Assembly: GCF_020782115.1 (NCBI RefSeq)
Contig: NZ_JAJGMW010000029.1
Location: 1-51,637, forward strand
Direction of reading: 5' to 3'
DNA: 51,637 nt
Source of the DNA: Leeuwenhoekiella parthenopeia
GTDB taxonomy: Bacteria; Bacteroidota; Bacteroidia; Flavobacteriales; Flavobacteriaceae
Position numbers and translations under genes: made by a program. Positions 3,829 through 51,019 of this stretch are shown piece by piece. A model generated the notes under the pieces. That model was not told the DNA's origin. It searched no databases and saw nothing but the letters and a program-made list of their open reading frames with translations. Numbering within the stretch: the first letter of the stretch is position 1; each line of letters begins with the position of its first letter.

Positions 3829-3829
3829 A

Positions 3830-4498: not shown

Positions 4499-4548
4499 AT
4501 TCTAAATGGCTAGGCGTCGTTAGTCGTACTAAGCCGGTAAAATTAACC

Positions 4549-4556
4549 TATTTTTG
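4549..4556 (+). promoter_or_regulatory. Possible -7 promoter element (TANNTTTG type)
   Basis: TATTTTTG lies 18 bases before the ATG of the methyltransferase gene and fits the Bacteroidetes -7 consensus TANNTTTG. No clear TTTG is present at the -33 spacing, so the assignment rests on one half only. If real, the 5' leader would be only about 10 bases long. Confidence 0.35.
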
Positions 4557-4573
4557 CAATCTAAATTTTTAGG

Positions 4574-5734: not shown

Positions 5735-5867
5735 CGTTTTTTAATGCAGAATTATGAGTTTTCCGAATAGAGTATTTAATACAAATGCCCAATTAACTAT
5801 TAACAGTTAACTGGTTTTAGCACTGAACTCCGAAAGAAGTAGAATTACTTTTAAATAACCCAATAAC

Positions 5868-6617: not shown

Positions 6618-6786
6618 CAGGCTGATTCAAATTTTGGTAAACAACTTCTGCATTATATAGCGAAGCATTTCATTGAACAAAAAAATCGGAGCTTCCTTTT
6701 AACCAAAGTTCACTTCGTGAGTAAAAGTAATTCAAATGATTTTTCTGTACCAAATAGATTATTAACATTTGCCCTGTAAGCTGAAT

Positions 6787-7962
6787 TTATCTGCTAATCA
6801 CCATTGCCGAAGCACCGCCGCCACCATTGCAAATCGCGGCAGCTCCCAGCTTAGCATTATTCTGTTTTAAGACGTTGATAAGTGTTATTAAAATACGCAC
6901 ACCGCTACATCCTAAAGGATGCCCCAGCGATACAGCGCCCCCATTTACATTCACTTTTGAAGCATCAAGGCCTAGAATTTTCATATTGGCAAGACCCACA
7001 ACCGAGAAGGCCTCGTTAAATTCGAAATAATCGACTTCATCCTGATTGATTCCGGCTTTATCAAGTGCTTTAGGTAAAGCTTTAGAAGGAGCGGTGGTAA
7101 ACCATTTAGGTTCTGTTGCCGCATCTGCATAACTTTTAATGGTGCAAAGCACTTCCAGACCCAGTTCGTCTGCTTTCGCTTTGCTCATCACGATAACAGC
7201 CCCTGCACCGTCGTTGATGGTAGATGCATTGGCAGCAGTTACGGTGCCGTCTTTAGAAAATGCGGGACGCAGGCTTGCAATCTTATCCATATGCACGTTT
7301 TTGAACTCTTCGTCTTCTTTAACGACAAGAGGCTCCCCACGTCTTTGAGGTACTTCAACAGGAATAACCTCGTCGTCAAACTTTCCGGCTTCCCAGGCAG
7401 CGGCAGAACGCTTATAGCTTTCAATTGCAAAAGCATCCTGATCTTCTCTGGAAAACTCATATTCTTTGGCGCACAAATCGGCACAAACGCCCATAGCATT
7501 GCCGTCATAGGCGTCTACCAAACCGTCTTTCTGCATCCCGTCAACCAGTGTGGCAGGGCCAAATTTAGTTCCGTTACGCATGTGCACGTAATGCGGAATC
7601 TGGCTCATGCTTTCCATTCCGCCAGCGATGACAATCTCATTATCGCCCAGCGCAACAGATTGTGCGGCAAGCATAACTGCTTTCATACCCGAAGCACAGA
7701 CTTTATTTACCGTGGTACAGGGCACTGTATCGGGGATTCCTGCCCCCAAAGCAGCCTGTCGTGCAGGAGCCTGTCCCACCCCGGCCTGAACGACATTGCC
7801 CATAAAGACTTCGTTAACCAGTTTGGGATCGAGATTTATTTTATCTAAAGCCCCTTTAATAGCGGCAGTGCCCAGTTGAACAGCTGTAAGTGAAGATAAG
7901 CTCCCTAAAAAACTGCCAATAGGCGTGCGTACCGCAGAGACAATTACAATTACCTTTTGCAT
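6787..7962 (-). CDS. Acetyl-CoA C-acyltransferase (thiolase)
   Basis: A 391-residue thiolase of normal length. The nucleophilic Cys sits in NKVCASGMKAV (near residue 88), NEAFSVV carries the structural active-site segment, GHPLGCSG carries the active-site His, and CNGGGGASA carries the second catalytic Cys. It condenses two acetyl-CoA units or cleaves 3-ketoacyl-CoA. Sequence alone does not separate biosynthetic AtoB/PhaA from degradative FadA, although the overall look is closer to acetyl-CoA acetyltransferase. A TAAATTTG -7 element reading toward the gene is present at 7991-7998. Confidence 0.95.
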   Translation of the reverse strand: MQKVIVIVSAVRTPIGSFLGSLSSLTAVQLGTAAIKGALDKINLDPKLVNEVFMGNVVQAGVGQAPARQAALGAGIPDTVPCTTVNKVCASGMKAVMLAAQSVALGDNEIVIAGGMESMSQIPHYVHMRNGTKFGPATLVDGMQKDGLVDAYDGNAMGVCADLCAKEYEFSREDQDAFAIESYKRSAAAWEAGKFDDEVIPVEVPQRRGEPLVVKEDEEFKNVHMDKIASLRPAFSKDGTVTAANASTINDGAGAVIVMSKAKADELGLEVLCTIKSYADAATEPKWFTTAPSKALPKALDKAGINQDEVDYFEFNEAFSVVGLANMKILGLDASKVNVNGGAVSLGHPLGCSGVRILITLINVLKQNNAKLGAAAICNGGGGASAMVISR

Positions 7963-8216
7963 AATAGTGTATCTTGGTTTATGTGTTCTGCAAATTTAAA
8001 GAATACCGTACGAAAACGTTATATTTTAGCAAGGCTTTAGTCTTTAGGTGAAAGCGCATTATTTAGTATTTTTACGAGGTGCGAAGCTATTGATCAGGGC
8101 ATCAGGTTATAAGTTGGTTTTTTTAAGAACATTTAATTCTACCGAAATCATAATTTGTTGTATTCTGAATATATCTGACCTAATTACACTAATTTGCCTG
8201 TTCCCAGAATCTTTTT

Positions 8217-10262: not shown

Positions 10263-10336
10263 TTTTTTGGCGGAATTCTTAGAATCAATCAGTTAGAGTA
10301 AAAATTAAAATTTCTTATCAAAATAGCCTGAAAAGC

Positions 10337-10368
10337 TTTGGTTGATCAAAAGTTTAAATATATATTTG
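10337..10368 (+). promoter_or_regulatory. Bacteroidetes-type promoter of tRNA-Ser
   Basis: TTTG at 10337-10340 and TATATTTG at 10361-10368 are separated by 20 bases. This matches the -33/-7 consensus of the Bacteroidetes primary sigma factor (TTTG, 19-20 bases, TANNTTTG). The predicted start is about 28 bases upstream of the tRNA-Ser gene. It may also drive the following tRNA-Pro. Confidence 0.75.
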
Positions 10369-10402
10369 CACCCGCGTTTTGAGACAGAGACGCTAGTTCT
10401 TA

Positions 10403-10486
10403 GGAGAGGTGCCGGAGTGGTAACGGAGCAGATTGCTAATCTGTCGACGGGTAACCGTCGCCAGGGTTCGAGTCCCTGTCTCTCCG
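10403..10486 (+). tRNA. tRNA-Ser (GCU)
   Basis: A complete class II tRNA. The acceptor GGAGAGG pairs with TCTCTCC. The anticodon loop TTGCTAA with anticodon GCT is closed by a CAGA/TCTG stem. A long variable arm (GACGGGTAACCGTC) and a T arm GGTTCGAGTCC follow. CCA is not encoded. The GCU anticodon reads AGC and AGU serine codons. Confidence 0.96.
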
Positions 10487-10573
10487 CAACAAATTGAAAA
10501 GATAACCGAAATTCAATTGAAGTGTAGTTTCTTGACAAGCTCGAGATAAATTACAATACAGATTGAAATCAAT

Positions 10574-10648
10574 CGGGGTGTAGCGTAGCCCGGTTATCGC
10601 GCCTGCTTTGGGAGCAGGAGGTCGCAGGTTCGAATCCTGCCACCCCGA
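10574..10648 (+). tRNA. tRNA-Pro (UGG)
   Basis: The acceptor CGGGGTG pairs with CACCCCG. The anticodon stem CCTGC/GCAGG encloses TTTGGGA with anticodon TGG, and the T arm is GCAGGTTCGAATCCTGC. CCA is not encoded. An integrase gene begins 240 bases downstream in the same direction, so the 3' end of this tRNA is the likely attachment site of the element that follows. I did not see a second copy of the tRNA 3' end in the window. Confidence 0.96.
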
Positions 10649-10676
10649 CTTTTTAACATATTAAATTATGTTATTC

Positions 10677-10719
10677 AAAAGGGTAATTATATGTAAATCA
10701 TATAGTTACCCTTTTTTTT
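10677..10719 (+). terminator. Rho-independent terminator after tRNA-Pro
   Basis: AAAAGGGTAA-TATATG (10677-10693) pairs with CATATAGTTACCCTTTT (from 10699) with one unpaired base and a short loop, and runs into eight T residues. It would end the tRNA transcript. If integration took place in the tRNA 3' end, this terminator belongs to the element. Confidence 0.8.
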
Positions 10720-10752
10720 GTATCAAATTGAATCATTTAGCATCATTTTAAA

Positions 10753-10802
10753 CGTGAGTTAATCGTGAGTTTAGTGTGCTAATCGTGAGTTGATCGTGAG
10801 CT
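10753..10802 (+). repeat. Four CGTGAGYT repeats, likely integrase arm-type sites
   Basis: CGTGAGTT, CGTGAGTT, CGTGAGTT and CGTGAGCT begin at 10753, 10764, 10784 and 10795, giving spacings of 11, 20 and 11 bases, all in the same orientation. They lie between tRNA-Pro and the integrase start, where the arm-type sites of lambda-like and CTnDOT-like integrases lie. Binding by the N-terminal domain of the adjacent integrase is inferred. Confidence 0.65.
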
Positions 10803-10890
10803 CATATTTTGTAAATTCATATAGAATTAACCTCGGGTTAATAGTTTGTCTTTCGTGTTCACTAATTGTTTAACTAAACAGTATGATGCG

Positions 10891-12090
10891 ATGCGTACAA
10901 ACAAAACATTCTCCATTTCGTTTTTCATAAGGAAAACAAAAAAGTCCCCATCTAAAGCTTTACTTTATGTACGGCTTACCGTGAATGGTAAGTCTAAAGA
11001 AATAAGTTTAAAGCGGGAATTAGTCACAGATAAATGGAATCAATCTCAGTCTAAAGTGCAAGGATCAGGTATAGAAGCTATTCAGATCAATCGAAAGATT
11101 GAACGAGTTCGCTCCAAACTTTACGACTGTTACGACGAGCTCCTTAATGAAGAAAGTTTCATTACAGCAGATACCATTAAAAATAGATTTCTTGGAAGTG
11201 ACGAAAAGCATAAGACGTTACTAACAATACTTGCTTACCATAGTACTAATATGAAAAGAGTACTAAAACCTGGGACACTTAAGAACTACAGTACTACTGA
11301 GCAGTATTTAAAGGAATTCTTAAAAATTGGTCTAAAAGTGCCAGACATTTATCTTAAGCACATCAATTACGAGTTTACCATAGGCTTCGAAACATTTTTG
11401 CGAAATAAAAGCTCCCTTAATAATAACGGAGTGATGAAACATATGGAGCGATTTAAAAAGATTATGGGTCTGGCCGTTAACTTAGATTGGATTGAGAAAA
11501 ACCCTACTTCACGTTTCAAATTAAGGTTTGATAAAGTTGACATGGTTTATTTAAATCAAAATGAACTAAAGAGACTCAAGGAATTTCAATTCAGCAATAA
11601 TACCTACAGTACTACCAGAGATGTATTTATTTTTGCTTGTTATACCGGATTAGCATATGCAGATGTGAAAGCCCTCAAAACGGATAATGTGCAAATTGGT
11701 GTCGACGGTAAAAAGTGGATATTTACCAAAAGGATTAAAACAGATACAGCTGTAAGAATCCCTCTTTTAAAGGAGGCAGAAAGAGTATTGAAGCAATATG
11801 AGATTGATCCTCGCACAATTAATTCTGACAAATTACTCCCTGTTTTTTCTAATCAGAAAACCAATAAATATCTAAAGGAATTAACACCAATTTGTAAAAT
11901 ACGCAAGAAACTAAGTTTTCACGCTGCGCGGCATACATTCGCAACGACAGTTACTCTGGCAAATGGTGTTCCTATAGAAACTGTATCAAAACTTTTAGGT
12001 CATCATAAAATATCCACCACACAAATTTATGCCCGAGTCATAGATGCTAAAATATCTAGTGATATCGACATATTAAGAACGAAGTTATAG
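10891..12090 (+). CDS. int: Tyrosine-type site-specific integrase
   Basis: A tyrosine recombinase of about 399 residues of the Bacteroidetes ICE type. I start it at the internal ATG (MRTNKTFS), the usual N-terminus of relatives, rather than at an ATG 45 bases upstream. An arm-binding domain and a SAM-like core-binding domain precede the catalytic domain. The catalytic residues visible are Lys in FTKRIKT, HAARHTFATT (His-x-x-Arg), LLGHHKISTTQIYARV (second His and the nucleophilic Tyr). The box I arginine is absent (TGLAYADV), as in IntDOT of CTnDOT, which also lacks it. It lies next to tRNA-Pro and direct repeats, and should integrate and excise the element. The gene is followed after 28 bases by the first 139-bp repeat, which contains a terminator-like hairpin. 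Confidence 0.95.
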   Translation: MRTNKTFSISFFIRKTKKSPSKALLYVRLTVNGKSKEISLKRELVTDKWNQSQSKVQGSGIEAIQINRKIERVRSKLYDCYDELLNEESFITADTIKNRFLGSDEKHKTLLTILAYHSTNMKRVLKPGTLKNYSTTEQYLKEFLKIGLKVPDIYLKHINYEFTIGFETFLRNKSSLNNNGVMKHMERFKKIMGLAVNLDWIEKNPTSRFKLRFDKVDMVYLNQNELKRLKEFQFSNNTYSTTRDVFIFACYTGLAYADVKALKTDNVQIGVDGKKWIFTKRIKTDTAVRIPLLKEAERVLKQYEIDPRTINSDKLLPVFSNQKTNKYLKELTPICKIRKKLSFHAARHTFATTVTLANGVPIETVSKLLGHHKISTTQIYARVIDAKISSDIDILRTKL

Positions 12091-38834: not shown

Positions 38835-39569
38835 ATGTGTTATGCAACCAGTTTGACTAAATCGAAAAAGGAAATCGAAGAAACCTTTAAGCGGGATTTT
38901 GCCGTTCCCCTGGAATACCAAAAGCATTATCATTTAAACGGTTTTGGCAGCGGAATGCTTTATATAATCCCCATGGAAACAGATCAAATTTATCCCTCCA
39001 GCTGGGGATTGATACCGGAATATGCATTTGAGGATCCGGCGGGTTTTAAAGCGGATTATAATACCCTCAACGCGCGAAGTGAAAGCATTTTCAGCAGCAG
39101 AACCTATAAAAAGAGCGCCGCAGAAGGCCGCTGCCTGATCATTGCTGACGGGTTTTATGAGCCGCATCATTATAAAAATAAATCACAGCCTTATTATTGT
39201 AGACTGGAGGGACATCAAGTCTTCGCCTTTGCAGGATTGTATACGGAACTTGATGATGAACTCTATAGTGCCAGTATCATTACCGTACCGGCTAATGAGC
39301 TGTTTGAACAGATACACAATAAAAAGAAGCGGATGCCCCTGGTTCTTGATGATCTATTTTTGGATAGCTGGATCGAGTCGGGATTAAATCAAAAGCAGGT
39401 GGAAGAATTGATGCGGGTAGGTTTTACCAATACCCCATTTGAAACCTATCCGGTAAGCAATGCCATTTATAAGCGGGGAGTAGAAACCGATGTGCCCGGG
39501 ATTTTAGAACCGGTACAACCCATAGACCCGGCCCTGGGTGGGGGAACGGAAGAGCTCACGCTTTTTTAG
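38835..39569 (+). CDS. SOS response-associated peptidase (SRAP/HMCES/YedK family)
   Basis: A 244-residue SRAP protein. The catalytic Cys is residue 2 (MCYATSL), NARSES follows around residue 80, then RCLIIADGFYEPHH with the Glu and a His residue characteristic of the family, and VPANELFEQIH near the C-terminus. SRAP proteins form covalent thiazolidine links with abasic sites in single-stranded DNA. It sits in the SOS cluster with umuD and umuC, so protection of incoming single-stranded DNA or repair is likely. A TCTAA...TTAGA inverted repeat lies in the 41-base gap to the divergent gene. Confidence 0.93.
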   Translation: MCYATSLTKSKKEIEETFKRDFAVPLEYQKHYHLNGFGSGMLYIIPMETDQIYPSSWGLIPEYAFEDPAGFKADYNTLNARSESIFSSRTYKKSAAEGRCLIIADGFYEPHHYKNKSQPYYCRLEGHQVFAFAGLYTELDDELYSASIITVPANELFEQIHNKKKRMPLVLDDLFLDSWIESGLNQKQVEELMRVGFTNTPFETYPVSNAIYKRGVETDVPGILEPVQPIDPALGGGTEELTLF

Positions 39570-39618: not shown

Positions 39619-39690
39619 GAGCCGAGTGAATCGAGAGGTTTACGTACGGTTCTTTGAGCGGTTTAAGGGTGAAACCCTCCTTTAACTATT
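39619..39690 (+). mobile_element. Group II intron domain V and VI remnant
   Basis: Bases 39619-39652 form a 34-base domain V: GAGCCG pairs with CGGTTC, an inner GTGAATC pairs with GGTTTAC and closes a GAGA tetraloop, with the ACGT bulge region characteristic of domain V. The following stem (GGTTTAAGGG with CCCTCCTTTAAC) fits domain VI. No 5' part of the intron is present upstream, where sequence unrelated to introns begins. It lies on the plus strand opposite the 3' end of the DUF2971 gene, whose last codons run into domain VI. Confidence 0.8.
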
Positions 39691-40604
39691 TGATCAGCAA
39701 CTGTGTTTTTTGCAACCAGTTTATATTCGTTTGGATGTTTAGTCATTTGAAATATAGGGATTTTTCTTTTATGAGCTAACTCAAATAATTCTCTTATTAA
39801 ATCTTTGTCATTTTGGTTAAACCTTGTACCAAGATAAATTGCTTTCGGATTTGGAACATTCATTTTTTGAGGGAAATACTCTTGCTGTTTGAACATTGTA
39901 AGTCTCCATTCTTCTTCATATTCCCAATCCTTAGATTTAATTAGGCTTGACCCAACCATTTTCATAGTGTTGTAAGCCTCCAAAAAATCAATTTTTTCGA
40001 TTTCTTGTCTATAAATTACTGGTTGTAAAAATGTTCTCAATTTATCAGTATCCAAAAAGTCGTATTCAATTGCAACTCCTTTATGTTGGTCAGCGTAGTG
40101 GCTCCACAATAAAAGTGATTGATTTGACACACTAAAACTGCATATTCGTATTTTCTCATTGGTTTCACGCACAATAACATTCCAGCGTTTATTCACCTTT
40201 TCCAAATGCTGTTCTGATGTAAGTGATAAAGGAATTTTTCTCTTCTTACAGATTTTTAAATAAGTTTCCCAAGGACTTTCACTTGTCTTAAGAGCTTTGA
40301 TTTCTTTGTCCGTTATATTTTGTCCAGAGATAAAATGAAAGTTTTTCTTGAATCCGTCCGTGGAAAAATAATTCCTTAAAGCTTCGTTGTTGTCAATTTG
40401 AATTGAACATTCAAATGGGTCATTAAGTGTTGCAATATCAGCTAACCAAATATAATTTTGCTCAATATTCTCTAAAGTCCGTTTAGAAAGGTTTCTGAAC
40501 TTATAAAATGATTTGGGAAAGTTGTCTATTTTCAGGGGAATGGCTTTTTCAAAATCTTCCGCCATCATATATTCCAAATATTCGCTTTTCCAATTTTCAG
40601 TCAT
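39663..40604 (-). CDS. DUF2971 domain-containing protein
   Basis: A 313-residue soluble protein of the DUF2971 family: PKSFYKFRNLSKRTLENIEQ near residue 28, NYIWLADIATLNDPFECS, IRICSFSVSNQSLLLWSHYADQHKGVAIEYDF (in parts), and DWEYEEEWRLTM in the middle. DUF2971 proteins are common on mobile elements and some lie in defence or abortive-infection-like neighbourhoods; the activity is not established. Base composition is visibly more AT-rich than the tra region. The last codons overlap the group II intron remnant, so the native C-terminus may have been changed. Confidence 0.82.
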   Translation of the reverse strand: MTENWKSEYLEYMMAEDFEKAIPLKIDNFPKSFYKFRNLSKRTLENIEQNYIWLADIATLNDPFECSIQIDNNEALRNYFSTDGFKKNFHFISGQNITDKEIKALKTSESPWETYLKICKKRKIPLSLTSEQHLEKVNKRWNVIVRETNEKIRICSFSVSNQSLLLWSHYADQHKGVAIEYDFLDTDKLRTFLQPVIYRQEIEKIDFLEAYNTMKMVGSSLIKSKDWEYEEEWRLTMFKQQEYFPQKMNVPNPKAIYLGTRFNQNDKDLIRELFELAHKRKIPIFQMTKHPNEYKLVAKNTVADQIVKGGFHP

Positions 40605-40774: not shown

Positions 40775-41526
40775 CTATAAATCTACTTTTTCAGGTTTTA
40801 ATCTGAAGGAATTTTTTGGTTTTGTCATTTTATAAACTTGTGTTTGAACTAAGCTTTGTCTGGAAAAATTCTTAATCCACTTCTCATTTTCTTCCATCAT
40901 TTTGCTGCCTAATAATATTTGAGAAATTGCGCTTTTATCAAACTCAAACAGAAATTTCTGATGATGATTAAATTTTAAGTTTGAAATAAAATTCTTACTT
41001 CTTCTTCATAGCTCCATATATCCGATTTTGTACTAATCCAGTGGTAGATTGATGCATTGTAATCTTCAAAATAATCCAATGATTTAAAGGTGTCCGTATA
41101 TTTTACTTGAATTAATGCTAATTGATCTTTTTTTAAATCTCTTAGGCTGAAATATAATTTGGTTAAATCAAATCCTATACAAACTCCTTTATGCGATCGT
41201 GTGTAATGTGACCACATTAAAGAATTATCCCCTTTTTCGCTAAAACAGGAAACACCTATTGTTTTGGCAAAATTAGGGAAAGCATAATTTTTATAAATTT
41301 CAATAACCTTATCATCTGTAAGACTTTCTAAATCAATTTTTCTGTGATTTTCAGACGTACTTAATTTGGAATTAAAATCTGGGATAGATTTTCTTGTTCT
41401 ATCTTTTAAGGCAGAACTGAAATCTAATAATTCAAGGTCACAATCGTAAGGATCATTAAATTCAGTTGGGCTTTTTGCCATTATTGTCATATTTTCTAGA
41501 AGCATTTTTGCTCCTTCAAATGGCAT
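40775..41526 (-). pseudogene. DUF2971 domain protein, frameshifted
   Basis: The frame from ATG at 41526 codes for MPFEGAKMLLENMTIMAKSP, TEFNDPYDCDLELL, a DNSLMWSHYTRSHKGVCIGFDL core and WSYEEEVRILFQT, then stops at 40975. In another frame the protein goes on at once: SNLKFNHHQKFLFEFD, ILLGSKMMEENEKW and up to a stop at 40775. One base missing from a run of T (minus strand AGAATTTTATTTC) explains the break: five T would give VRIFISNL. Upstream, an in-frame VPIIYQY precedes the ATG after a TAA, so the first residues may also be lost. It is distinct from the neighbouring DUF2971 protein. Confidence 0.72.
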
Positions 41527-41729: not shown

Positions 41730-41843
41730 ACCTATATGGGAGGGTGGGCAGTAGCCCAAGGCCCTATACTGCGTACTACAATTTCTGAGAAACGTTCAAG
41801 ACAAGGAGGTTTTAATAGAATTACTTCAAGGAAAACATTTTAG
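41730..41843 (+). pseudogene. C-terminal fragment of a group II intron maturase
   Basis: One plus-strand frame reads TYMGGWAVAQGPILRTTISE and KRSRQGGFNRITSRKTF then TAG. The GGWAVAQxPIL-TTI block, followed by a KR-x-R-x-x-GF segment, matches the last residues of Bacteroidetes group II intron-encoded reverse transcriptases/maturases. No reverse transcriptase part is present, and no domain V follows. It is on the same strand as the domain V/VI remnant 2 kb upstream, but in the wrong order to be the same intron copy. Identification is by memory of the family's C-terminus. Confidence 0.6.
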
Positions 41844-42877
41844 TTATCGAACTGTAAAATGGAAATATCATCAATTCCAAAATTCCCTTTATATTCCCAG
41901 ATATAGCCGGGTATTGAAAGCTCTTTCAAAACCTCATCTACAGCTTTTAAATATTTTATGCGTGATTGTTTATCTGCGTTTTGTGTTACTCCATATTCTG
42001 TACACCATACTTCAACACCATAAGTACTTCTCCATGTGTTTAATAAAGATAATTTATCACGAATAGCCTGATAGGTACCGGTTTGAGAATAATCCCTGTA
42101 ATTTATTGCTCCTTCAGTACCCATAGCTTTTTCAGACAATTGAGGCATTTGTATAACTTCGGTAGAATCAGGATATGGAAATGGAATCCCTGTAGTTGCG
42201 TTCTGATTTCCGGTCCAGGTCGTTCCCTGATGAGTGAATATAAAAGGTTCATAGAAATGAAAACTATAAATAATGGATTTAAATGGAAGCGGTTGCATCC
42301 TTGATAATTCATAAATACTATTATAGTTGGATGCGCCACATACTATAATAACTTCAGGATGACTTGTGCGGATACTGGTGATGATGTTTTTAGCTGTTTC
42401 CTCCCATTCTTTAGGGTAAAGCACCGGCTCATTGACGATATCAATATACAGCTCTGGGTAAAGCAAATGTTTGTCATTTAAAAAGTCAAGTAATTGCAGC
42501 CAGTTCTTAGAAATGAGCTTCCCTTGAGACTTGTAATTTTCCTGAGAAAGATGGTGATTAAAATTTGAAAGTATCAAAGCCATCTTGTGTTTGGAAGCAT
42601 ATCGTGTTATGCGCTTTATCCACTTTTTAAATTCCTTTAATTCATTCTCGTTTGCATTTTCAAAAAAAAAGTTTAAATCTACAGGGAGTCTTATATTATT
42701 TATACCCTCTTGCGATAGCAATTGCAAATCATTAAACAGTCTTTGATACGCTGTTATTTGCTCTGATTTCCAGGTTTTTTCAAGACCTGTAATGTTAACT
42801 CCTTGAGAGTGAGTAGTAAATATCCTACACGATATAAAAATAAAACTTAAAAAAATCTTCCAATTGATTGATGTCAT
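41840..42877 (-). CDS. Glycoside hydrolase family 5 (endo-beta-glucanase/cellulase type)
   Basis: About 345 residues. I start at MTSINWKIFL, which gives a normal signal peptide ending near THSQG, rather than at an ATG 42 bases upstream. The GH5 barrel is clear: ININRLPVDLN-like INNIRLPVDL strand, acid/base Glu in DIVNEPVLYP, a YSFHFYEPF with conserved His, and the nucleophile Glu in VWCTEYGVT. GH5 enzymes cleave beta-1,4- or mixed-linkage glucans. The gene is divergent from the synthase operon with 40 bases between starts. Cellulose synthase operons often carry such an endoglucanase (BcsZ is GH8), so it probably trims the polymer. Confidence 0.9.
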   Translation of the reverse strand: MTSINWKIFLSFIFISCRIFTTHSQGVNITGLEKTWKSEQITAYQRLFNDLQLLSQEGINNIRLPVDLNFFFENANENELKEFKKWIKRITRYASKHKMALILSNFNHHLSQENYKSQGKLISKNWLQLLDFLNDKHLLYPELYIDIVNEPVLYPKEWEETAKNIITSIRTSHPEVIIVCGASNYNSIYELSRMQPLPFKSIIYSFHFYEPFIFTHQGTTWTGNQNATTGIPFPYPDSTEVIQMPQLSEKAMGTEGAINYRDYSQTGTYQAIRDKLSLLNTWRSTYGVEVWCTEYGVTQNADKQSRIKYLKAVDEVLKELSIPGYIWEYKGNFGIDDISILQFDN

Positions 42878-42917
42878 AGCTGTAATTATTATATTCGTAC
42901 TGCACCCAAACAATTCC

Positions 42918-44249
42918 ATGAGTACCAGGTTATCTAAAACTTACTTTTTAGAAGCGCTCAATGCGCAAATGTGGAAAGCTTCAAACATCTTAATTTGGGG
43001 TTCTATTTTCTTTATGATATTTATTTCCATTCTGGATTTTCTTTTAATAGAAGATAAATACATAATCCTTACATTTCTTAACGGTTGTACTTTAATACTA
43101 ATTGCAACATCTAATTATTTGCTTACCAAAATACTTAAAAAACCCACGCTTATACTACATATAGTATTAGTCCTTTTAAGTTTTTTATTTCTTTATAGTA
43201 TGAGCCTTACCGGAGCCATGGGCTATTATTTATACCTGTCACTTATTTGTTTGGCTTTTATAGCATTTAACAGTATTGCTGTATGGACATTGGGAAATGC
43301 AGTTTTTCAGTGTTTTGTATTGAGTATTTTACTTATTACAATGGATTATTTTAAAGTACTCCATTTTTCTGAGCTTGAACATTATGGGGTGTATACCACA
43401 CTGGCTGTGGTAGCGTTCAGTATAACCTTTCCCTCTCTGAAAATGCTGAGTCTCGTGGATGACTTGAAAGAGTTTTACAGATTAAAACAAGAAAAAAAAG
43501 AGGTATCTCGTCTCAATCTATCACTCCAAAAAGAAAATGATATTCAGAAGCAAAAACTGAATCGTTATGAGAACAGTGCAAAAGTATTTAGGCACGACCT
43601 TAAAAACAAATTAGGTAGTATAGAATCCCTAATAGAGTTGATAGAACTTGAAGATCAATATCATTTGTTGCCGGGTCAAAACGATTATCTGGATATGATA
43701 AAAAATTCACTTGTAGAAGCCTCTGGTGAGCATACTTTTTTTAAAACATTCATGGAGGAAGCAGAAGAACAAATAGTACTTAATAAGTCTATGGTTGATC
43801 TGCACGAACTGGTTAAAAATAGTCGTTTGAAACTTTTTGAAAAAACATCTTCCCAAAATATAAAGCTTGATATTGACTTAAAAGCAGCAAATTCACTGAT
43901 TTATGTGGATCAAAATTTAGCAAACTCGGCTATCTATAATTTGATGAATTACGCCATTAGGTTCTCAAGGAATAATGATACCCTGATGATCACTTCCCGC
44001 AATACTCAGGATGTGATAATGCTTGAGATTGTAAATACCATGACGGGTCTACCCATGGCACAATTGGAATCTTACTTTAAGAATCTTTCGTATTATCAGT
44101 TAGAGGACAAACAAAATAATAAGGGCTTAGGTCTGAGTATAGCAAAAAATAATATTGAACTTCTGGATGGTCATCTCAGGTATAGTTCGTCTACCACGCT
44201 GGGCTTTGAATTTCTCATTGAATTTCCACAGAACGCTAATTTGAATTAA
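42918..44249 (+). CDS. Sensor histidine kinase, membrane-bound
   Basis: About 443 residues, started at MSTRLSKTYFL, not at an upstream ATG that would run into the GH5 gene. There are six hydrophobic segments (residues about 30-190) without a large periplasmic domain, then a coiled coil (RLKQEKKEVSRLNLSLQKEN), a HisKA-like segment with RHDLKNKLGSIESL (His phospho-site), and a HATPase_c domain with N box NSAIYNLMNYAIRFS and G2 NKGLGLSIAKN. The G1 Asp is replaced by Asn (IVNTMTGLP). It is the first gene of the exopolysaccharide operon; the single-domain regulator at the end is the likely partner. Confidence 0.9.
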   Translation: MSTRLSKTYFLEALNAQMWKASNILIWGSIFFMIFISILDFLLIEDKYIILTFLNGCTLILIATSNYLLTKILKKPTLILHIVLVLLSFLFLYSMSLTGAMGYYLYLSLICLAFIAFNSIAVWTLGNAVFQCFVLSILLITMDYFKVLHFSELEHYGVYTTLAVVAFSITFPSLKMLSLVDDLKEFYRLKQEKKEVSRLNLSLQKENDIQKQKLNRYENSAKVFRHDLKNKLGSIESLIELIELEDQYHLLPGQNDYLDMIKNSLVEASGEHTFFKTFMEEAEEQIVLNKSMVDLHELVKNSRLKLFEKTSSQNIKLDIDLKAANSLIYVDQNLANSAIYNLMNYAIRFSRNNDTLMITSRNTQDVIMLEIVNTMTGLPMAQLESYFKNLSYYQLEDKQNNKGLGLSIAKNNIELLDGHLRYSSSTTLGFEFLIEFPQNANLN

Positions 44250-44272
44250 ATAGTTGATTATAAATTCTAACT

Positions 44273-46312
44273 ATGAAGAAGAAACAAATAGGATTTACCG
44301 TTTTAGCTTTACTAAGCATCTTAAATGTATTTGCTCAAGTTACTCTCGATTTTACAGAGTTTAACTATCCCGAAGAAACAATTACCTGGGGATCCCATAC
44401 TAAAATGACCTATTTCATTCCGGTGGATCGTACAAAACTCCTTAAAAATAACAGCATACATTTAGATTTTAAAACGTCTGAAGTCTTAACCCGAGAGAAA
44501 AGCTTTATTACCCTGGTCATTGCGGATACTCCAAGAGCGACAAAATCACCTGATGGAGATGACTACACCGTAAGTTTTACTGAAGCTTTTGGAGCTAAAG
44601 ATGTTGTTTCCGGATTTTTAAAAATTGAAATCTTAAATAATTTATCAATTACCGATGATATATGCGAAATATATAATGAAGGTGCTTTTTGGATCCGACG
44701 ATTAAATTCATCTTACATCAGTCTGGACTATGATCAATCCTACATCACACCAAATACTATCTCCGAATTTATTCCCAGGGTCGAGAGGCTTTTTATCCCT
44801 GAAAATCCTTCCTTTGAAGAATTGAATTACGCTGCCTACACACAATTTTTCTTTAAACGGGAGTGGGGAAAAGAACTTCAAATTGAATACATTCCTCAAT
44901 CCTTTGACACCATACAAGCCAATAGTATCACACTGGGGAAAATTGAAAACCTGCCCTTAGGTATTAAGGAATCTGTTCCTGCTGATCTTAAATCAAAAGG
45001 ATTAATCAAATTATTAACTCTAAGCAAATCAGGATCTGATGCTAAACCCAATGAGAATGAGTTGATTCAAACCTTATTAGTTACCGGAGCCGATCTAAAA
45101 GGCTTTTTCAAGGCTGCCCAGAGTTTACTCGCTAAAGAAATAACTCAAAGTGCATTTAGCACTACCTATCTTGTAAATGAAGGGATGGATATGAGCTATA
45201 AGCGTCCTTCAGCAGATCGTAAGCTCAATTTCAAACAGCTTGGAGTTATTGATGAAATAACTGAAGGTATAGGTAAACTTTCAAAAGAATTCACACTTTC
45301 CAGGTCGGTTTATGGTGCCGATCTCTCTGAGTTGACCATGCAATTATCATTTACCTATCGACCCCTGAAAGAAAACGAAAATGCTTATGTAAATATTTAT
45401 CTAAATGATGAATTGGAATTGAGTGAAGCCCTAAACTCAACAGGTAAATTTGAACGTATTGTAAATTTTGAAAATTTAAATCTTGGTAAAAACAGTCAGT
45501 TTAGGGTAGAATATTACTATGTACCGGCAGGAGGTCTCTGCATTAAAAATCCCATCTTATTTTATGCTCAAATCAATCTGGAACGTTCATTTGTGCAGGC
45601 CGCGGGATATCGTGAAAATAAAGATCTGGATTTTTACTATTATCCGGAAATTTTGTCTACAAATCACCCGGCGGCTATCTATTTAGACATGCCCTATCAA
45701 AAAGATCACATACCCGCTTTAAGTAAACTCATTGGCAGTATAAATCCCATCGATAACGGCAATTCGTATTTGTATCCCAGAATAATGCCTGCCGACAGCC
45801 TGAAATTAGATGAGAAAAAGTACAGCCCAATTATTATTTCTTCAAAATCAGGTTCGCTAACCCAATTTAATGCGTCTACAGAAAACTTCACACTGGAAGG
45901 AAATCAATTCAATTTTGAGAAAACGGACTACACCAGGTATTTTAATATATCCTATACTGACGAACTGGGAGTGTCTCAATTATTCACTAAAAATGATGTT
46001 AAAGGTTTATTTATGTTTGTGCCCGAAGGAAAAGCATCCATTTTAAACTTTTTAGTAGAAAAATTGAAAGAACAGGGCAGCCAGAGCAGGGGAGACCTGA
46101 TTTTAGCAAGCGACAGTGAAGCATTTGTATTTGACTTAAACACATTAAATAGTCAGGCAAATAAGGAAGAGATACAAAGTAATTTTGACGTTTTTTGGCT
46201 TAATTATCGGGTCTTTGTCATTTTCGCATTGTTTGTAATGATGGTGGTTACTCTAATTTATATTTTCCAAAAATCCCAACAGTCGAAAAAAAATATAGTA
46301 AATGAAAACTAA
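44273..46312 (+). CDS. BcsB-like periplasmic subunit of cellulose/beta-glucan synthase
   Basis: A 679-residue exported protein with a signal peptide (ending near VFAQ), a large beta-rich periplasmic part, and one C-terminal transmembrane helix (YRVFVIFALFVMMVVTLIYI) with a short cytoplasmic tail. That is BcsB architecture: two carbohydrate-binding/ferredoxin-like pairs, then a tail anchor which docks to BcsA. Motifs that look BcsB-like include NPILFYAQINLERSF and DLDFYYYPEILSTNHP. It would guide the polymer through the periplasm. The end overlaps the barrel gene by 11 bases. Confidence 0.8.
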   Translation: MKKKQIGFTVLALLSILNVFAQVTLDFTEFNYPEETITWGSHTKMTYFIPVDRTKLLKNNSIHLDFKTSEVLTREKSFITLVIADTPRATKSPDGDDYTVSFTEAFGAKDVVSGFLKIEILNNLSITDDICEIYNEGAFWIRRLNSSYISLDYDQSYITPNTISEFIPRVERLFIPENPSFEELNYAAYTQFFFKREWGKELQIEYIPQSFDTIQANSITLGKIENLPLGIKESVPADLKSKGLIKLLTLSKSGSDAKPNENELIQTLLVTGADLKGFFKAAQSLLAKEITQSAFSTTYLVNEGMDMSYKRPSADRKLNFKQLGVIDEITEGIGKLSKEFTLSRSVYGADLSELTMQLSFTYRPLKENENAYVNIYLNDELELSEALNSTGKFERIVNFENLNLGKNSQFRVEYYYVPAGGLCIKNPILFYAQINLERSFVQAAGYRENKDLDFYYYPEILSTNHPAAIYLDMPYQKDHIPALSKLIGSINPIDNGNSYLYPRIMPADSLKLDEKKYSPIIISSKSGSLTQFNASTENFTLEGNQFNFEKTDYTRYFNISYTDELGVSQLFTKNDVKGLFMFVPEGKASILNFLVEKLKEQGSQSRGDLILASDSEAFVFDLNTLNSQANKEEIQSNFDVFWLNYRVFVIFALFVMMVVTLIYIFQKSQQSKKNIVNEN

Positions 46313-47192
46313 AATCACCTGCTTCTTTATTTGTTTTAGTGTTTATCTGATACGGGCTCAAAATCCAGAAGGTTTTAGTAGTCTGTCGCCAGACACAACC
46401 CTGGCAGATACGTCGGTTAGGTTAAATCCCTGGCAACAGGCTAAAGGGGAGGTTCTCATTGCTCCTTACCTAAGTCATTACATTGCAAATTCATATCGAG
46501 ATTCTGAAGGAAAAAAAATTGACTTTGCCAATAATGGAAGGTACAGCAATTTTAATCCCAGAGTATTTATTGCAGCCCCTTTGATTTCAGAGAAAATAAA
46601 TCTTATCGGTTCTATTCCCTATTTCTTTAATAAATATGAAACTGGTGCCGGTTTAGATACGAATGTGGATTTTGGGGATATAGAATTAGGACTACGTTTT
46701 CACCTGGCAAAATTTAAAAACAATTACCTGCTTGGAAGCTTAATAGGCTATATACCAGCTTATAATAATACACGACCGCCTTTTGCCGGTTATGATCTTT
46801 TTGCTTTGGAATCTCGCCTGGCCCTGGTAGGTAATCTACCCTTCCTGGGAGGTTATAATAACTTTCATAAAGTAGAGTTGGGCTTTCGTTATTTTTTTCC
46901 CAACGATCCTGCACAGATCCGTTTTTTACTTTCTGAAGGCTACCGCATAACCGATAAGTTTAGTATACTCGGAGAACTTGAAGGAATGTTTTCATTTAGT
47001 GAAAATGAAGAATTTTTCAATACCAATTTACAAGCTGTTGCCGACTACAAAATGATTAAAGCTTCGGGAAATCTGGGTTATGAGTTTACTTCAGATTTTA
47101 CAATTTATGGAGGCTTTTTTCATGACATCTATAACCGAAATGCAGCAATTGGTCACGGATTTCAGCTATTCTCGGTGATTAAAATCAATTAA
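46302..47192 (+). CDS. Probable outer-membrane beta-barrel protein of the synthase operon
   Basis: A 296-residue exported protein with signal peptide to about residue 19 (IRAQ). It is built of amphipathic beta-strands with alternate aromatic residues (for example FFNKYETGAGLDTNVDFGDIELGLRFHL in parts, NLGYEFTSDFTIYGGFF), typical of outer-membrane barrels. I see no TPR repeats, so it is not BcsC-like; it may serve as the outer-membrane pore or as an anchor. It sits between the BcsB-like and the glycosyltransferase genes, two bases from the latter. Confidence 0.7.
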   Translation: MKTKITCFFICFSVYLIRAQNPEGFSSLSPDTTLADTSVRLNPWQQAKGEVLIAPYLSHYIANSYRDSEGKKIDFANNGRYSNFNPRVFIAAPLISEKINLIGSIPYFFNKYETGAGLDTNVDFGDIELGLRFHLAKFKNNYLLGSLIGYIPAYNNTRPPFAGYDLFALESRLALVGNLPFLGGYNNFHKVELGFRYFFPNDPAQIRFLLSEGYRITDKFSILGELEGMFSFSENEEFFNTNLQAVADYKMIKASGNLGYEFTSDFTIYGGFFHDIYNRNAAIGHGFQLFSVIKIN

Positions 47193-47194
47193 TA

Positions 47195-49090
47195 ATGCTG
47201 AATCATTATAGAAATGACATATTCTTAAAATCAGGTTTAATTACTCAGGATATCTATGCACGCATAGAAGAAATGAGTAAGAGTCTTAATAAATCATTTC
47301 TAAAGATTACCCTTAACTACGCATTTCTTTCCAGACTTAAGTTTAAAGAACACCTGCAATCATTAAACATTTGCTTTTTTCAATTTGATTACACTAATCT
47401 TGTTGAGATCAAAAAAAACCTTACTAAAGAAGAGTTTGACTTTTTACTGGATCAAAATTTATATCCTTTAGCACTAGATAACGGAAAGGTTGATTTGGTT
47501 ACAGCAGATCCTTCTGATGACATAAGTATCACTCGATTTAAAGATTTCTTCGGTTATGAAGTAGGAGTTATTTATATAGGAGAAGATTTAGATATCGTAA
47601 AAGCTTTACATATGACTTATGGGGGAGCTATTTTACACAAAGCTGTTTTTGATTTGTATGAGAGGGATACTAAAAGTTCTGCCTTAGAAACATTTACTTT
47701 AAGACAGGTACTGGTGTTAGGAATACTGGGGTTCATTTTTTTAATAATCTTGCTTTTTTATCCAGTAACCACACTCATAGGACTCAATTTATTTATCAAT
47801 TTGTTTCTACTCCTGGCAATAGGATTTAAATTTCTTTTGACAGTTGTAGGAGCCAGGTCTGAAACGATCCAGAAGATATCTCAGGCAGAGCTATCTGATA
47901 TCAAAGATGAGGAGCTGCCTTTCTATACGATTCAATTACCCGTATTCAAAGAATCTGAAGTGATTTATAAGCTTGCTTCAAACCTTCAAAATTTAGACTA
48001 CCCCAAAGAAAAATTAGATGTAAAATTACTTATAGAGTCAGACGACGAAGTCACCTTTAATGCTGTAAAAAACCTTAAGTTTCCGTGTATTTTTGATCCG
48101 GTAATTATTCCCTACGCTCAGCCTAAAACAAAACCTAAAGCCTGTAATTATGGACTCCATTTTAGCAAAGGCACTTATCTAACTATTTATGACGCAGAAG
48201 ATATTCCGGATAGTGATCAGCTAAAAATGGTTCATAAGTTGTTTAAGAAGCTTCCGGAGGAATATATTGTAATTCAATGTGCGCTGAATTACTTTAATAA
48301 AACAGAGAATTTTCTTACCAGGATGTTTACGTTGGAATATTCGTATTGGTTTGATTATATGCTTCCGGGCCTAGATGGTCTAAAGGTCCCTATACCCCTG
48401 GGAGGGACCAGTAATCATTTTAAGTTTGACAAACTTATTGAACTGGGAGGATGGGACGGCTTCAATGTTACTGAAGATGCTGATTTGGGGATTCGGGCTT
48501 ATGCTAAAGGCTATAAAGTCACAGTTTTAAATTCTACTACCTATGAAGAAGCAAATAATGCCTTCTACAATTGGATTAGACAGCGATCCAGATGGATTAA
48601 GGGTTATATGCAGACTTACCTTGTTCATATGCGAAATCCCGCTAAATTGTACAGGGAAGTAGGACTTAATGGTTTCCTGGGATTTCAGTTTTTTATAGGG
48701 GGTACTTTTTTTACCTTTTTGGCTTATCCGGTGCTTCTGTTGCTGTTTCTGTTTTATATTTTTTTGACTTTTGACATTAGTTCCTATGTTGTTGGGTCTT
48801 TAAATACTGAAATCGTCAACTTTTTTAAATTGATATTTCCTGAATGGGTAATAATCATTTCCGTTTTTAATTTTATGGCCGGGAACCTGTTGATGATTTA
48901 TATCAACATGATAGCTGTTTTTCGCAGAAAATCTTACAGTTTAATTTTATATGCTATTACCAATCCTATTTATTGGCTAATGCACTCCATATCTGCATAT
49001 AAGGGATTGTTTCAATTGATATCTAAACCTTTTTATTGGGAAAAAACCAATCATGGGCTCACCAAAGAGCATAAACCAGAGATAGAATGA
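47195..49090 (+). CDS. Family 2 glycosyltransferase with N-terminal GspE/MshEN-like domain (synthase catalytic subunit)
   Basis: A 631-residue protein in three parts. Residues about 1-145 resemble the N-terminal domain of type II secretion/pilus ATPases (GspII_E_N or MshEN), with FKEHLQSLNI and LYPLALDNGKVDLVTADPSD, IAD-like IYIGEDLDIVKAL. Two hydrophobic helices follow (about 170-220). The GT2 domain (about 240-480) has LLIESDDE, YDAEDIPD, TEDADLG and QRSRW, the D, DxD, TED and QxxRW motifs of processive synthases. Several helices end the protein. It is close to XagB-type glycosyltransferases. It has no PilZ domain; MshEN domains can bind c-di-GMP, so a different second-messenger input is inferred. 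Confidence 0.87.
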   Translation: MLNHYRNDIFLKSGLITQDIYARIEEMSKSLNKSFLKITLNYAFLSRLKFKEHLQSLNICFFQFDYTNLVEIKKNLTKEEFDFLLDQNLYPLALDNGKVDLVTADPSDDISITRFKDFFGYEVGVIYIGEDLDIVKALHMTYGGAILHKAVFDLYERDTKSSALETFTLRQVLVLGILGFIFLIILLFYPVTTLIGLNLFINLFLLLAIGFKFLLTVVGARSETIQKISQAELSDIKDEELPFYTIQLPVFKESEVIYKLASNLQNLDYPKEKLDVKLLIESDDEVTFNAVKNLKFPCIFDPVIIPYAQPKTKPKACNYGLHFSKGTYLTIYDAEDIPDSDQLKMVHKLFKKLPEEYIVIQCALNYFNKTENFLTRMFTLEYSYWFDYMLPGLDGLKVPIPLGGTSNHFKFDKLIELGGWDGFNVTEDADLGIRAYAKGYKVTVLNSTTYEEANNAFYNWIRQRSRWIKGYMQTYLVHMRNPAKLYREVGLNGFLGFQFFIGGTFFTFLAYPVLLLLFLFYIFLTFDISSYVVGSLNTEIVNFFKLIFPEWVIIISVFNFMAGNLLMIYINMIAVFRRKSYSLILYAITNPIYWLMHSISAYKGLFQLISKPFYWEKTNHGLTKEHKPEIE

Positions 49091-50649
49091 AAAGGATAGT
49101 GACCGTTTTTTTTATTGGTATTCTTATTTCTGCGTATTATATCGGAGTAGGCTTTTATCAACAATTTTTGGGTTTTCAATTTTTGGAACCCTTATTTTTG
49201 ACAGATCGTCTTCAGCTCCTTTTTACCAATGATGTCAAAACTCTTGAACTTTTTTACTTTACCTATCCTTCGTTAACGCATCTTATAAATATCCCGGCAG
49301 CATTTATCAATCCTTTGTGGGCACCCCTTATCACCTCGGGTATCGTGGTAGGTTTTTTCGCAGCACATATTATTGTAGAATTATTTAGCAAACAATTGAA
49401 AACTGTTTCTGTACTGGTAACCATCTACTTTCTCACCAGTCCTGTAATTTTATCCATTGCCATTTCAGGTACTTATCTCTATTTATTCCTGATTCTTTAT
49501 TATCTATTTTTTAATTTTCTATTTCGATACACTCGTGATTACACTTCTTATAATTTTGTGATGATAAGCTTGTGCTTAACATTATTTGTCCTGCTTGATT
49601 ATACTTTTTTGTGGATTATAATTTTTATTATTCCGGTGATCTTTTTGTTCAGTCTTTTTAACTTCAAAGGTTATGAAAAATCATACATAGGTATTTTTGA
49701 AGAACTTACACAAAACAGAGTATCAGCAAGAGAACTATTGAATAAATCGTTATCAACTCTTTTAGTTATTCTCTTTACACCCGTAATCAGTTTTGTGTTG
49801 TTTTTAATTATTAATTTCTGGTTTACGGGAGATTTTATGTTTTTTGCCGATGCAAAAACTACTATGTGGAATAGTCAACCTGAATTAAGTTCTATTTTTT
49901 ATCAGAGGGAACACAAGGACTCCTTATTTTTTGATGGCTGGAAGTATTCGGTTACATGCTGTTTTCTTTTATCTGCACCGTTCTTGCTATCATTTTTAAT
50001 AGGCAGAAAGAAATTACTGTTCCAAATTATCTTGTTTTTAGTGCCGATATGGCTCTTATATAAAATGAATTCTAACCCCTTAGAAAGTCTTCCCTTAGAA
50101 GACCTACTCATTATAACCGCTGCAGGGATAGCAGGTTTCATTCACCTTTTTCAAACTCCCTTGATTCACGTATTTCGGTCTAATAAATTAGTTTACTTGA
50201 TTAGCTTTGCGCTTTTGTGCTTATGTCTTATTAGCGAATATTATTATTTTGATTTCTCAAAAAATCCAAGGGATGAAAATATGCTTTCGTTTTTAAAACA
50301 AGAAGTTCCTTTTAATACTATAGCTGTAAACGAAACTGTGCACTATATTCAAGAAAATATTCCCCGAGGCTCTAAAATCTTAACCGATAATTCGTTAACC
50401 TATCCGGTGAGCGCCTTGACTCGGAATGCTGTACACTACATTGATCAGTTTGATACTAATTATTATTTAGTTTTACAAAATCCGTCAATTCAGGCAGATT
50501 ATGTGTTGATTGTAAATACCAGATATTATGATACACAAAAAGGCTTGAAGAATAAAGTTAATGGAGATATTGCGTCTCTTCCACTAATTTACCAAAATGA
50601 GGTTTTTAGTATCTTAAAGTCACAAGATAAGAACGATGATTTCAGGTAA
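49087..50649 (+). CDS. Polytopic membrane protein, GT-C-like
   Basis: A 520-residue inner-membrane protein with 11 or more helices in the first 390 residues and a C-terminal soluble part of about 120 residues (HYIQENIPRGSKILTDN, ADYVLIVNTRYYD). This arrangement is that of GT-C glycosyltransferases of the dolichyl-phosphate-mannosyltransferase (GT39) type. No definite catalytic DxD near the first loop is certain. It overlaps the synthase stop by four bases and the response regulator start by 14 bases, so it belongs to the same operon. It could add a side chain, or help translocation; this is inference. Confidence 0.68.
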   Translation: MKRIVTVFFIGILISAYYIGVGFYQQFLGFQFLEPLFLTDRLQLLFTNDVKTLELFYFTYPSLTHLINIPAAFINPLWAPLITSGIVVGFFAAHIIVELFSKQLKTVSVLVTIYFLTSPVILSIAISGTYLYLFLILYYLFFNFLFRYTRDYTSYNFVMISLCLTLFVLLDYTFLWIIIFIIPVIFLFSLFNFKGYEKSYIGIFEELTQNRVSARELLNKSLSTLLVILFTPVISFVLFLIINFWFTGDFMFFADAKTTMWNSQPELSSIFYQREHKDSLFFDGWKYSVTCCFLLSAPFLLSFLIGRKKLLFQIILFLVPIWLLYKMNSNPLESLPLEDLLIITAAGIAGFIHLFQTPLIHVFRSNKLVYLISFALLCLCLISEYYYFDFSKNPRDENMLSFLKQEVPFNTIAVNETVHYIQENIPRGSKILTDNSLTYPVSALTRNAVHYIDQFDTNYYLVLQNPSIQADYVLIVNTRYYDTQKGLKNKVNGDIASLPLIYQNEVFSILKSQDKNDDFR

Positions 50650-51019
50650 TTTACGCTCAATACTAATAGTTGATGATAATCCGTTAAATCGTTTTTTAAT
50701 CACTACCATGGTCAATAAAATAGTTGTAGACGTGACGATACAACAAGCTGAAAACGGATATGATGCCTTACATTTTTTCAAATCAATAAGTCCGGACCTT
50801 ATTTTTATGGACATTAAGCTTCCCGACCTGAATGGTTTCGAGGTTATTAAGCAAATACGAAATTTGGAGACCGAAAATCGAACACCAATTATTGTAATTA
50901 GTGGGAATCAGGCATCTGATGAAAATCATTTAAAGAATGAAAACCTTATCGATGCCTATCTTGAAAAGCCTATACGGTTTACAGAGCTTAAAGCAATTTT
51001 GGATACGATTTTTTATTAG
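50636..51019 (+). CDS. Single-domain response regulator
   Basis: A 127-residue protein that is only a receiver domain. The acidic pocket is ILIVDDNPLNRF, the phospho-acceptor Asp in LIFMDIKLPDLNG (near residue 60), the conserved Ser/Thr in IIVISGN, and Lys in YLEKPIRF. No output domain is present, as in CheY/SpoIIAA-type control by protein contact. It is the last gene of the operon, and the kinase is the first, so the pair brackets the synthesis genes. The phosphorylated form probably acts on a synthase subunit. Confidence 0.92.
   Translation: MISGNLRSILIVDDNPLNRFLITTMVNKIVVDVTIQQAENGYDALHFFKSISPDLIFMDIKLPDLNGFEVIKQIRNLETENRTPIIVISGNQASDENHLKNENLIDAYLEKPIRFTELKAILDTIFY

Follow-up and report, generated by a model that had tools for sequence, protein, structure and literature searches.

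A sensor-kinase gene fronts a probable Sfz-type exopolysaccharide synthase operon lacking c-di-GMP-binding residues in Leeuwenhoekiella parthenopeia and its relatives

The window analysed in the present study, a stretch of 51,637 nucleotides from Leeuwenhoekiella parthenopeia, is a contig from a genome of 4.42 Mb in 58 contigs and carries an exopolysaccharide operon that begins with a gene for a sensor-kinase-like membrane protein. The following six genes lie in one direction: the kinase gene; a gene for a BcsB-like subunit; a barrel gene; a gene for a synthase with an N-terminal MshEN-like module and a membrane-bound glycosyltransferase family 2 (GT2) domain; a gene for a membrane protein of glycosyltransferase fold C (GT-C); and a receiver gene. 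A gene for a glycoside hydrolase of family 5 (GH5) is divergent from them (Table 1). A check of open reading frames (ORFs) found all seven where a preliminary description, made from the DNA letters alone, had placed them, and the close spacing that it reported was also recovered. The kinase and BcsB genes are separated by 23 bases, the BcsB and barrel genes overlap by 11, the barrel and synthase genes are 2 bases apart, and the GT-C gene overlaps the synthase gene by 4 bases and the receiver gene by 14. The kinase probably starts at the ATG at 42918 rather than at the TTG at 42864, and the GH5 protein probably starts at its second methionine; the first start codons of the relative L022 are at the same places. 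With this downstream GH5 start, the divergent start codons are only about 40 bases apart, and the spacing in L022 is identical. A sigma-70 scan gave 27 matches against 40.5 in shuffled sequences, and a terminator scan gave 3 against 5.3, which in both cases was fewer than in the shuffles.

Table 1. Genes of the exopolysaccharide locus, with positions in the window
Feature	Position	Strand	Evidence and remarks
GH5 endoglucanase-family protein, signal-like N-terminus	41840..42919	-	PF00150 8.6e-24; probable start ~42877
Sensor-kinase-like membrane protein	42918..44249	+	HATPase_c 4.9e-11
BcsB-like periplasmic subunit	44273..46312	+	PF03170 4.7e-15
Outer-membrane beta-barrel, 296 residues, without a tetratricopeptide repeat (TPR) part	46302..47192	+	AlphaFold2 and Foldseek
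Polysaccharide synthase, N-terminal MshEN-like module, then membrane GT2	47195..49090	+	PF05157 2e-6; PF13632 5.4e-22
GT-C-fold membrane protein, 520 residues	49087..50649	+	AlphaFold2 and Foldseek
Single-domain receiver	50636..51019	+	PF00072 6.1e-23

The operon was compared with relatives found by a scan of the genome collection, in which the best 80 of at least 567 confirmed relatives were kept as survey loci; the survey is therefore limited to near relatives, mostly of the genus Mucilaginibacter. The final counts comprise the window and L022-L101, and the loci L012-L019 from another search, of which L012 and L013 repeat L062 and L041, were left out. Outside the operon counts are also the paralogue in the window's own genome (L002/L021) and a weak relative in genome G361 (L011, L020), which has 31% identity and in which BcsB was not found. 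Gene order was established by profiles, and the denominators include only loci with enough flanking sequence to be scored. The synthases were aligned together with plasmid relatives, and the MshEN part of this alignment was nearly gapless. Its 79 rows are the window and L022-L101 minus L052 and L082, in which the synthase ORF is split, and 78 of them are readable in the MshEN part, L064 being gapped.

Profile and fold comparisons confirmed the earlier view of a processive-type exopolysaccharide synthase operon with a BcsB, an outer-membrane barrel, a GT-C-like protein and a GH5 enzyme. The synthase of the window contains the GT2 motifs DAED, TED and QRSRW, the GT2 motifs were intact in all 79 rows, and no PilZ match was found on the window's synthase with Pfam at an E-value of 0.1. 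The proposed BcsB identity was borne out by the Pfam match and by the family profile, which matched six sequences in the PDB, all of them BcsB (best E-value, 2.6e-5); a phmmer search of the PDB with the single window protein gave only one chance match (E = 0.56). On reading, this protein has a signal-like N-terminus and a C-terminal hydrophobic helix, and it is the only BcsB in the window's own genome. Neither the barrel nor the GT-C protein had a Pfam match at an E-value of 0.1, and their AlphaFold2 models had predicted local distance difference test (pLDDT) scores of 84.5 and 84.4, respectively. The best Foldseek match of the barrel was the COG4313 channel 4rl8 (E = 8e-10; TM-score 0.65), and FapF was also matched (8.5e-9). 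The model of the GT-C protein matched 17 PDB chains at an E-value of 0.001 or lower, which were judged from their titles to be GT-C proteins (DPY19, oligosaccharyltransferase (OST)/translocon complexes, PglB and ALG9). The query TM-scores of these chains were 0.34-0.46, and the highest, 0.52, was that of ArnT at an E-value of 2.6e-3; with scores this modest, the predicted GT-C fold class is credible and no close family can be named. GT-C enzymes have an acidic residue in the first periplasmic loop, and the corresponding loop of this protein contains Glu34, which was kept in 36 of 37 sequences, while Asp434 was invariant in the 37 rows. The closest solved relatives of the GH5 protein were FnCel5A (2e-23) and CelC (1.1e-21).

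The gene order recurs widely. The kinase gene was present in 70 of 71 scorable loci, BcsB adjoined in 74 of 75 and the GT-C gene was found in all 76, an arrangement beyond chance. The GH5 gene stood beside the operon, divergent or convergent, in 51 of 70 loci, the barrel gene was present in 18 of 75, and a receiver of fewer than 150 residues adjoined the operon in 10 of 66. Thus, of the seven-gene order that had been expected to recur, the kinase, BcsB, synthase and GT-C genes are a stable unit, and the GH5, barrel and receiver genes vary. On inspection of 14 loci, the idea that another hydrolase takes the slot where GH5 is missing was dropped. The divergent neighbour in the inspected Mucilaginibacter-type loci has about 326 residues and is presumably a desaturase, and the same protein lies behind GH5 in L036; the GH5 slot of L019, L091, L094 and L095 holds an apparent ATPase of an ATP-binding cassette transporter, as judged by eye. 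In L032 and L093, BcsB appears as two ORFs, perhaps by a frameshift or an assembly error. The one locus in which BcsB lies further off is L087, from Kryptonia (3452-11830), which encodes a CotH protein and BcsB, then a protein of 312 residues that weakly matches pentatricopeptide repeats, the barrel, the synthase and the GT-C-type membrane protein; no kinase was found at this locus.

The distribution of the operon is patchy. In Mucilaginibacter, the genus of genome G421, 84 of the 100 sampled genomes had the synthase (E-value of 1e-60). It was also found in 5 of 13 genomes of the window's own genus with its own genome included, and at an E-value of 1e-60 in 1 of 120 genomes of its family, which was its own genome. 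At an E-value of 1e-40, it was found in 10 of 395 genomes of the class, the own genome included, one of which (G361) was weak and of a different kind. Among the matches listed, the closest synthase was that of Leeuwenhoekiella polynyae with 95% identity. Between the window and L022, identity is 95% for the synthase, 73-76% for BcsB, the GT-C protein, the receiver and GH5, and 81-83% for the kinase and the barrel, i.e., rates are uneven within one operon.

Relatives of the synthase were also found on plasmids (11 records at an E-value of 1e-20), three of which were examined. In Geobacillus (L110), BcsB (2e-11) is followed by a synthase with 50% identity and then by a protein annotated as GT39, which matched the GT-C family of the window with an hhalign E-value of 3.6e-13. 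In at least one case, on a plasmid, the core of BcsB, synthase and GT-C protein is therefore also present beyond Bacteroidota. This plasmid, from the Gram-positive Geobacillus stearothermophilus, is typed as conjugative, and the BcsB gene, the MshEN-GT2 synthase gene and the GT39-like gene lie together on it at 4694-10052, flanked on either side by an integrase/transposase gene and a recombinase gene. The Hyphomicrobiales plasmid (L111) has the synthase, a membrane protein with a weaker match to the GT-C family (1.6e-7) and then a receiver protein, with a kinase downstream; a 713-residue ORF upstream had a weak BcsB match (0.012) below the cut-off. The receiver protein beside this XagB-like synthase (L111:10428-11357) has 309 residues, and its C-terminal part of about 190 residues has no Pfam match. 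In Frigoribacterium (L112), the synthase is present and the annotation names no BcsB.

The Bcs cellulose synthase system (BcsABZC) has a PilZ domain on the synthase, a TPR-barrel exporter and the GH8 enzyme BcsZ. It shares with the operon the BcsB subunit, processive GT2 motifs, a cellulase-type hydrolase and an outer-membrane pore; the operon differs in having no PilZ match, GH5 instead of GH8, a barrel without TPR and the additional GT-C and kinase genes. The preliminary description knew of no described cluster with this gene set, a view that has to be withdrawn for the core, since the xag-like sfz/sfb clusters, as described in the excerpts of the published reports, share BcsB and an MshEN-GT2 synthase. 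In iron oxidisers, the sfz/sfb stalk clusters contain a BcsB-like gene beside a synthase with an N-terminal EpsE-type (MshEN) and a C-terminal GT2 part, a third gene, whose product of about 500 residues has no known domain, and a hydrolase of family GH10 (PMC8250860, PMC4643136). Judged from these excerpts, the synthase architecture with TED and QxxRW motifs, the BcsB-like gene and a glycosyl hydrolase are common to both, and the third protein agrees by its length of about 500 residues, a likeness by length only. The operon of the present study differs in having GH5 instead of GH10, the sensor-kinase gene at its front, which was not seen in the excerpts, and the loss of c-di-GMP (cyclic diguanylate) residues. 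The CotH protein beside BcsB in the Kryptonia locus recalls Sfz6 of the sfz cluster as excerpted, and L087 looks like a bridge to these clusters. The Xag system of Xanthomonas has a related synthase that is required for biofilm (PMC3609779), and no statement was found that BcsB is included there. Similarly, NfrBA-YbcH of Escherichia coli combines GT2 and MshEN in one inner-membrane protein with an outer-membrane exporter to make an exopolysaccharide (PMC8669469). However, GT2 comes first and MshEN last in NfrB, its identity is 21% in the GT2 region, its c-di-GMP motifs are present, its exporter is a TPR-barrel, and the paper makes no mention of BcsB and proposes UDP-ManNAc as the substrate. 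Among the matches listed in the literature search, there was no description of this operon in Bacteroidota. On the excerpts seen, the operon is thus of the Sfz type (xag-like) with an already published core, and what differs is its control.

Synthases of the BcsA/B type and of the MshEN type are c-di-GMP effectors. In the MshEN domain, c-di-GMP is bound by the motif RLG...Q, which occurs twice (PMC5013675, as excerpted). A relaxed expression of this motif, taken from the same excerpt, matched in none of the 88 operon-type loci and twice in the NfrB control. Arg1 and Gly3 were present in neither motif in all 78 readable synthases, position 1 of motif I was proline in four rows, and Gln24 was kept in two rows in motif I and in one row in motif II; an older motif total that included L012-L019 (0 of 87) is in agreement. 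Among the plasmid relatives, L111 passed the relaxed expression twice, with Pro for Arg in the first motif and Arg for Gln in the second, L110 passed once, its first motif keeping R, L, G and Q and having the middle Gly replaced by Lys, and L112 failed. Moreover, no GGDEF domain was found in the window's own genome, and GGDEF matches occurred in 2 of 40 carrier genomes (L024 and L087) and, at the level of the class, in 7 of 295 genomes, five of them over the cut-off. This scarcity is class-wide and is therefore a feature of the class that is not tied to the operon. The c-di-GMP control proposed in the sfz paper (PMC8250860, as excerpted) hence does not fit here, where the residues and, in the own genome, GGDEF are absent. 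The MshEN module aligns almost without gaps to relatives that bear the motif, and PF05157 still matches it (4.9e-13 in L083), which might suggest that nucleotide binding, either of c-di-GMP at lower affinity or of another dinucleotide, has remained the main input; given the lost residues and the near absence of GGDEF from the genomes searched, we regard this as unlikely.

The kinase, on the other hand, is almost always present, and its catalytic motifs vary. The kinase of the window keeps the phospho-accepting histidine (FRHDLKN), and its N-box (NLMNYAIRF) has Tyr for Asn and its G1 box (VNTMTG) has Asn for Asp. Among 75 kinases (the window and 74 from L022-L101), the histidine was present in 68, with L086 truncated, the N-box Asn in 60, the G1 Asp in 47 and all three in 47. 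These 47 intact kinases are the Mucilaginibacter-type rows together with L083 and L085, and an older total including L012-L019 (53 of 83) is in agreement. At the three positions, the window and L022, L023 and L024 have H, Y and N, the Belliella/Algoriphagus/Arthrospiribacter kinases have H, Y and A or G, L025 has Y, Y and T, and those of Algibacter, Wenyingzhuangia marina and Polaribacter have Q, F and N with the first G2 glycine also changed; furthermore, the histidine position holds K in L090, E in L017 and N in L097. On a synthase tree, which was thinned to 47 rows, built by a quick method with 42 intact rows omitted and with two outgroup rows on long branches, the histidine changed at least three times, the N-box once and the G1 box twice. 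As a control, 13 kinase-like ORFs outside the operon were taken from the fetched loci, and all of the ten that could be read at both positions keep N and D; these ten include one gene counted twice and one kinase with Gln in place of the histidine. The loss of the N-box Asn and G1 Asp in the window, and of the histidine in some relatives, makes ordinary phosphotransfer by the window kinase doubtful, although 47 of the 75 kinases look intact.

Such decay of catalytic motifs in several lineages would also be expected of a passenger gene without a role in polymer synthesis. The kinase is nevertheless kept in nearly every scorable locus, and even in L031-L033, where the histidine is gone, the proportion of nonsynonymous differences (pN) is 0.19-0.23 against a near-saturated synonymous proportion (pS) of 0.61-0.67; the corresponding rate ratio (dN/dS) between the kinases of the window and L022 is about 0.08, with dS near saturation. 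The window kinase gene thus looks to be under constraint, and we consider a decaying passenger very improbable. The idea that the membrane part is better conserved than the catalytic part did not hold, since mean pairwise identity over 23 rows was 0.235 in the membrane part, 0.227 in the dimerisation and histidine phosphotransfer (DHp) domain and 0.272 in the catalytic and ATP-binding (CA) domain.

The receiver of the window has the acidic pair, the phospho-accepting Asp, the Ser and the Lys in place, as judged from PF00072 and by reading. Its location varies: it lies at the 3' end in the window, in L022-L024 and in L099, a locus that is not scorable; upstream and in line in L083-L085; upstream and divergent in L031-L033; and downstream and convergent in L078. 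On the receiver count, the idea that kinase and receiver are regularly paired was rejected, and of the two-component pair that had been proposed to control synthesis, the kinase is fixed and the receiver, in four kinds of position, is not. In L023 (13361-17687) and L024 (13463-17055), the receiver is followed by another, larger kinase, whose H, N and D are intact, and this in turn by a second single-domain receiver. The intact kinase may supply phosphate to a receiver that the degenerate kinase would do no more than read.

The rarity of an adjoining receiver and the histidine and motif counts are also consistent with conventional two-component control of transcription, in which an active kinase would phosphorylate a response regulator encoded elsewhere and the local receiver would be a phosphate sink or unrelated. 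In L055, a receiver protein of 350 residues, whose tail looks CRP-like by eye, is encoded a few genes further downstream. By contrast, the N-box and G1 residues are lost in the clade of the window and the histidine was lost repeatedly in a gene that looks constrained, and the ten counted receivers are single-domain proteins, although a length below 150 residues was the counting criterion. We therefore hold transcriptional control to be possible and clearly less probable than the post-translational control set out below.

With moderate confidence, we favour the explanation that this is an Sfz-type exopolysaccharide operon in which a kinase-derived membrane regulator has replaced c-di-GMP as the post-translational switch of the synthase. 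From a nucleotide sugar, the GT2 domain would build and extrude a beta-linked polymer, BcsB would guide the polymer, the barrel, where present, would let it out, the GT-C protein would add a lipid-carried sugar or shape the exit, and GH5 would trim the polymer. Beta-glucan or cellulose, the product suggested in the preliminary description, is a putative identity of this polymer. The MshEN module, which serves as a receptor for c-di-GMP in related systems, is left without its binding residues in hosts mostly devoid of GGDEF enzymes, and the sensor-kinase homologue at the operon front most likely took over as switch. In the lineage of the window, this homologue probably has little or no kinase activity and would act by conformation, perhaps via the intact-looking single-domain receiver and the MshEN module. 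Two precedents, as excerpted, make kinase-based control of the synthase plausible. In Myxococcus, the single-domain receiver EpsW directly activates an exopolysaccharide enzyme, EpsZ, post-translationally (PMC12802240), and the pseudokinase DivL is a repurposed kinase scaffold that reads the phosphorylation state of the response regulator DivK (PMC4211667). Unlike the synthase of the operon, the enzyme that EpsW targets belongs to a Wzx/Wzy pathway, as its phosphoglycosyl transferase (PMC12802240), and DivL acts in cell-cycle signalling; by contrast, the kinase of the window still has its histidine. A more specific and tentative version, to which we assign a low probability, is that in several lineages, that of the window included, the kinase has turned into a regulatory subunit of the synthase with weak or no catalysis, which reads receiver phosphorylation, in a DivL-like reverse signalling, or a membrane cue, and signals to the degenerate MshEN module. 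In this reverse signalling, the receiver may be charged by another kinase, e.g., the intact one after it in L023 and L024.

Several observations weigh against a kinase-derived switch of the synthase. Contact between the kinase and the synthase is what we infer, and the kinase could act on transcription via an unlinked regulator; most of the sampled kinases, 47 of 75 and nearly all of the Mucilaginibacter type, have intact H, N and D, and the membrane part, being about as well conserved as the kinase part, is not marked as an interface. The rarity of GGDEF is not specific to carriers of the operon, and the Kryptonia locus lacks both the kinase and the residues that bind c-di-GMP, although GGDEF is matched in its genome. 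Furthermore, two-component genes are not a simple substitute for c-di-GMP, since L111 has a receiver and a kinase and still passes the relaxed motif. L112, which is not of this operon type, also fails that motif.

On the GH5 side of the locus, two adjacent DUF2971 genes lie at 39663-40604 and 40975-41526 on the reverse strand, and an SRAP gene lies on the same flank at 38835-39569.

In conclusion, the BcsB and MshEN-GT2 core of this operon is already known from the excerpted reports, and what is new is an unusual regulatory twist on an Sfz-type (xag-like) synthase. If the two are homologous, the GT-C protein suggests a role as a GT-C transferase for the third gene of the sfz clusters, whose function is given as unknown in the excerpts. 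The chassis of a c-di-GMP effector synthase persists in a class in which GGDEF is rare, with its binding site lost and a kinase-derived protein fixed beside it, and the question of how a synthase-dependent polymer is switched on without c-di-GMP can now be tested. If the reverse-signalling version is true, a BcsB-type polysaccharide synthase would be under allosteric control without cyclic dinucleotides across Bacteroidota. Mucilaginibacter is named for its slime, and the presence of the synthase in most of the sampled genomes of this genus makes the operon a concrete candidate for the production of that slime.

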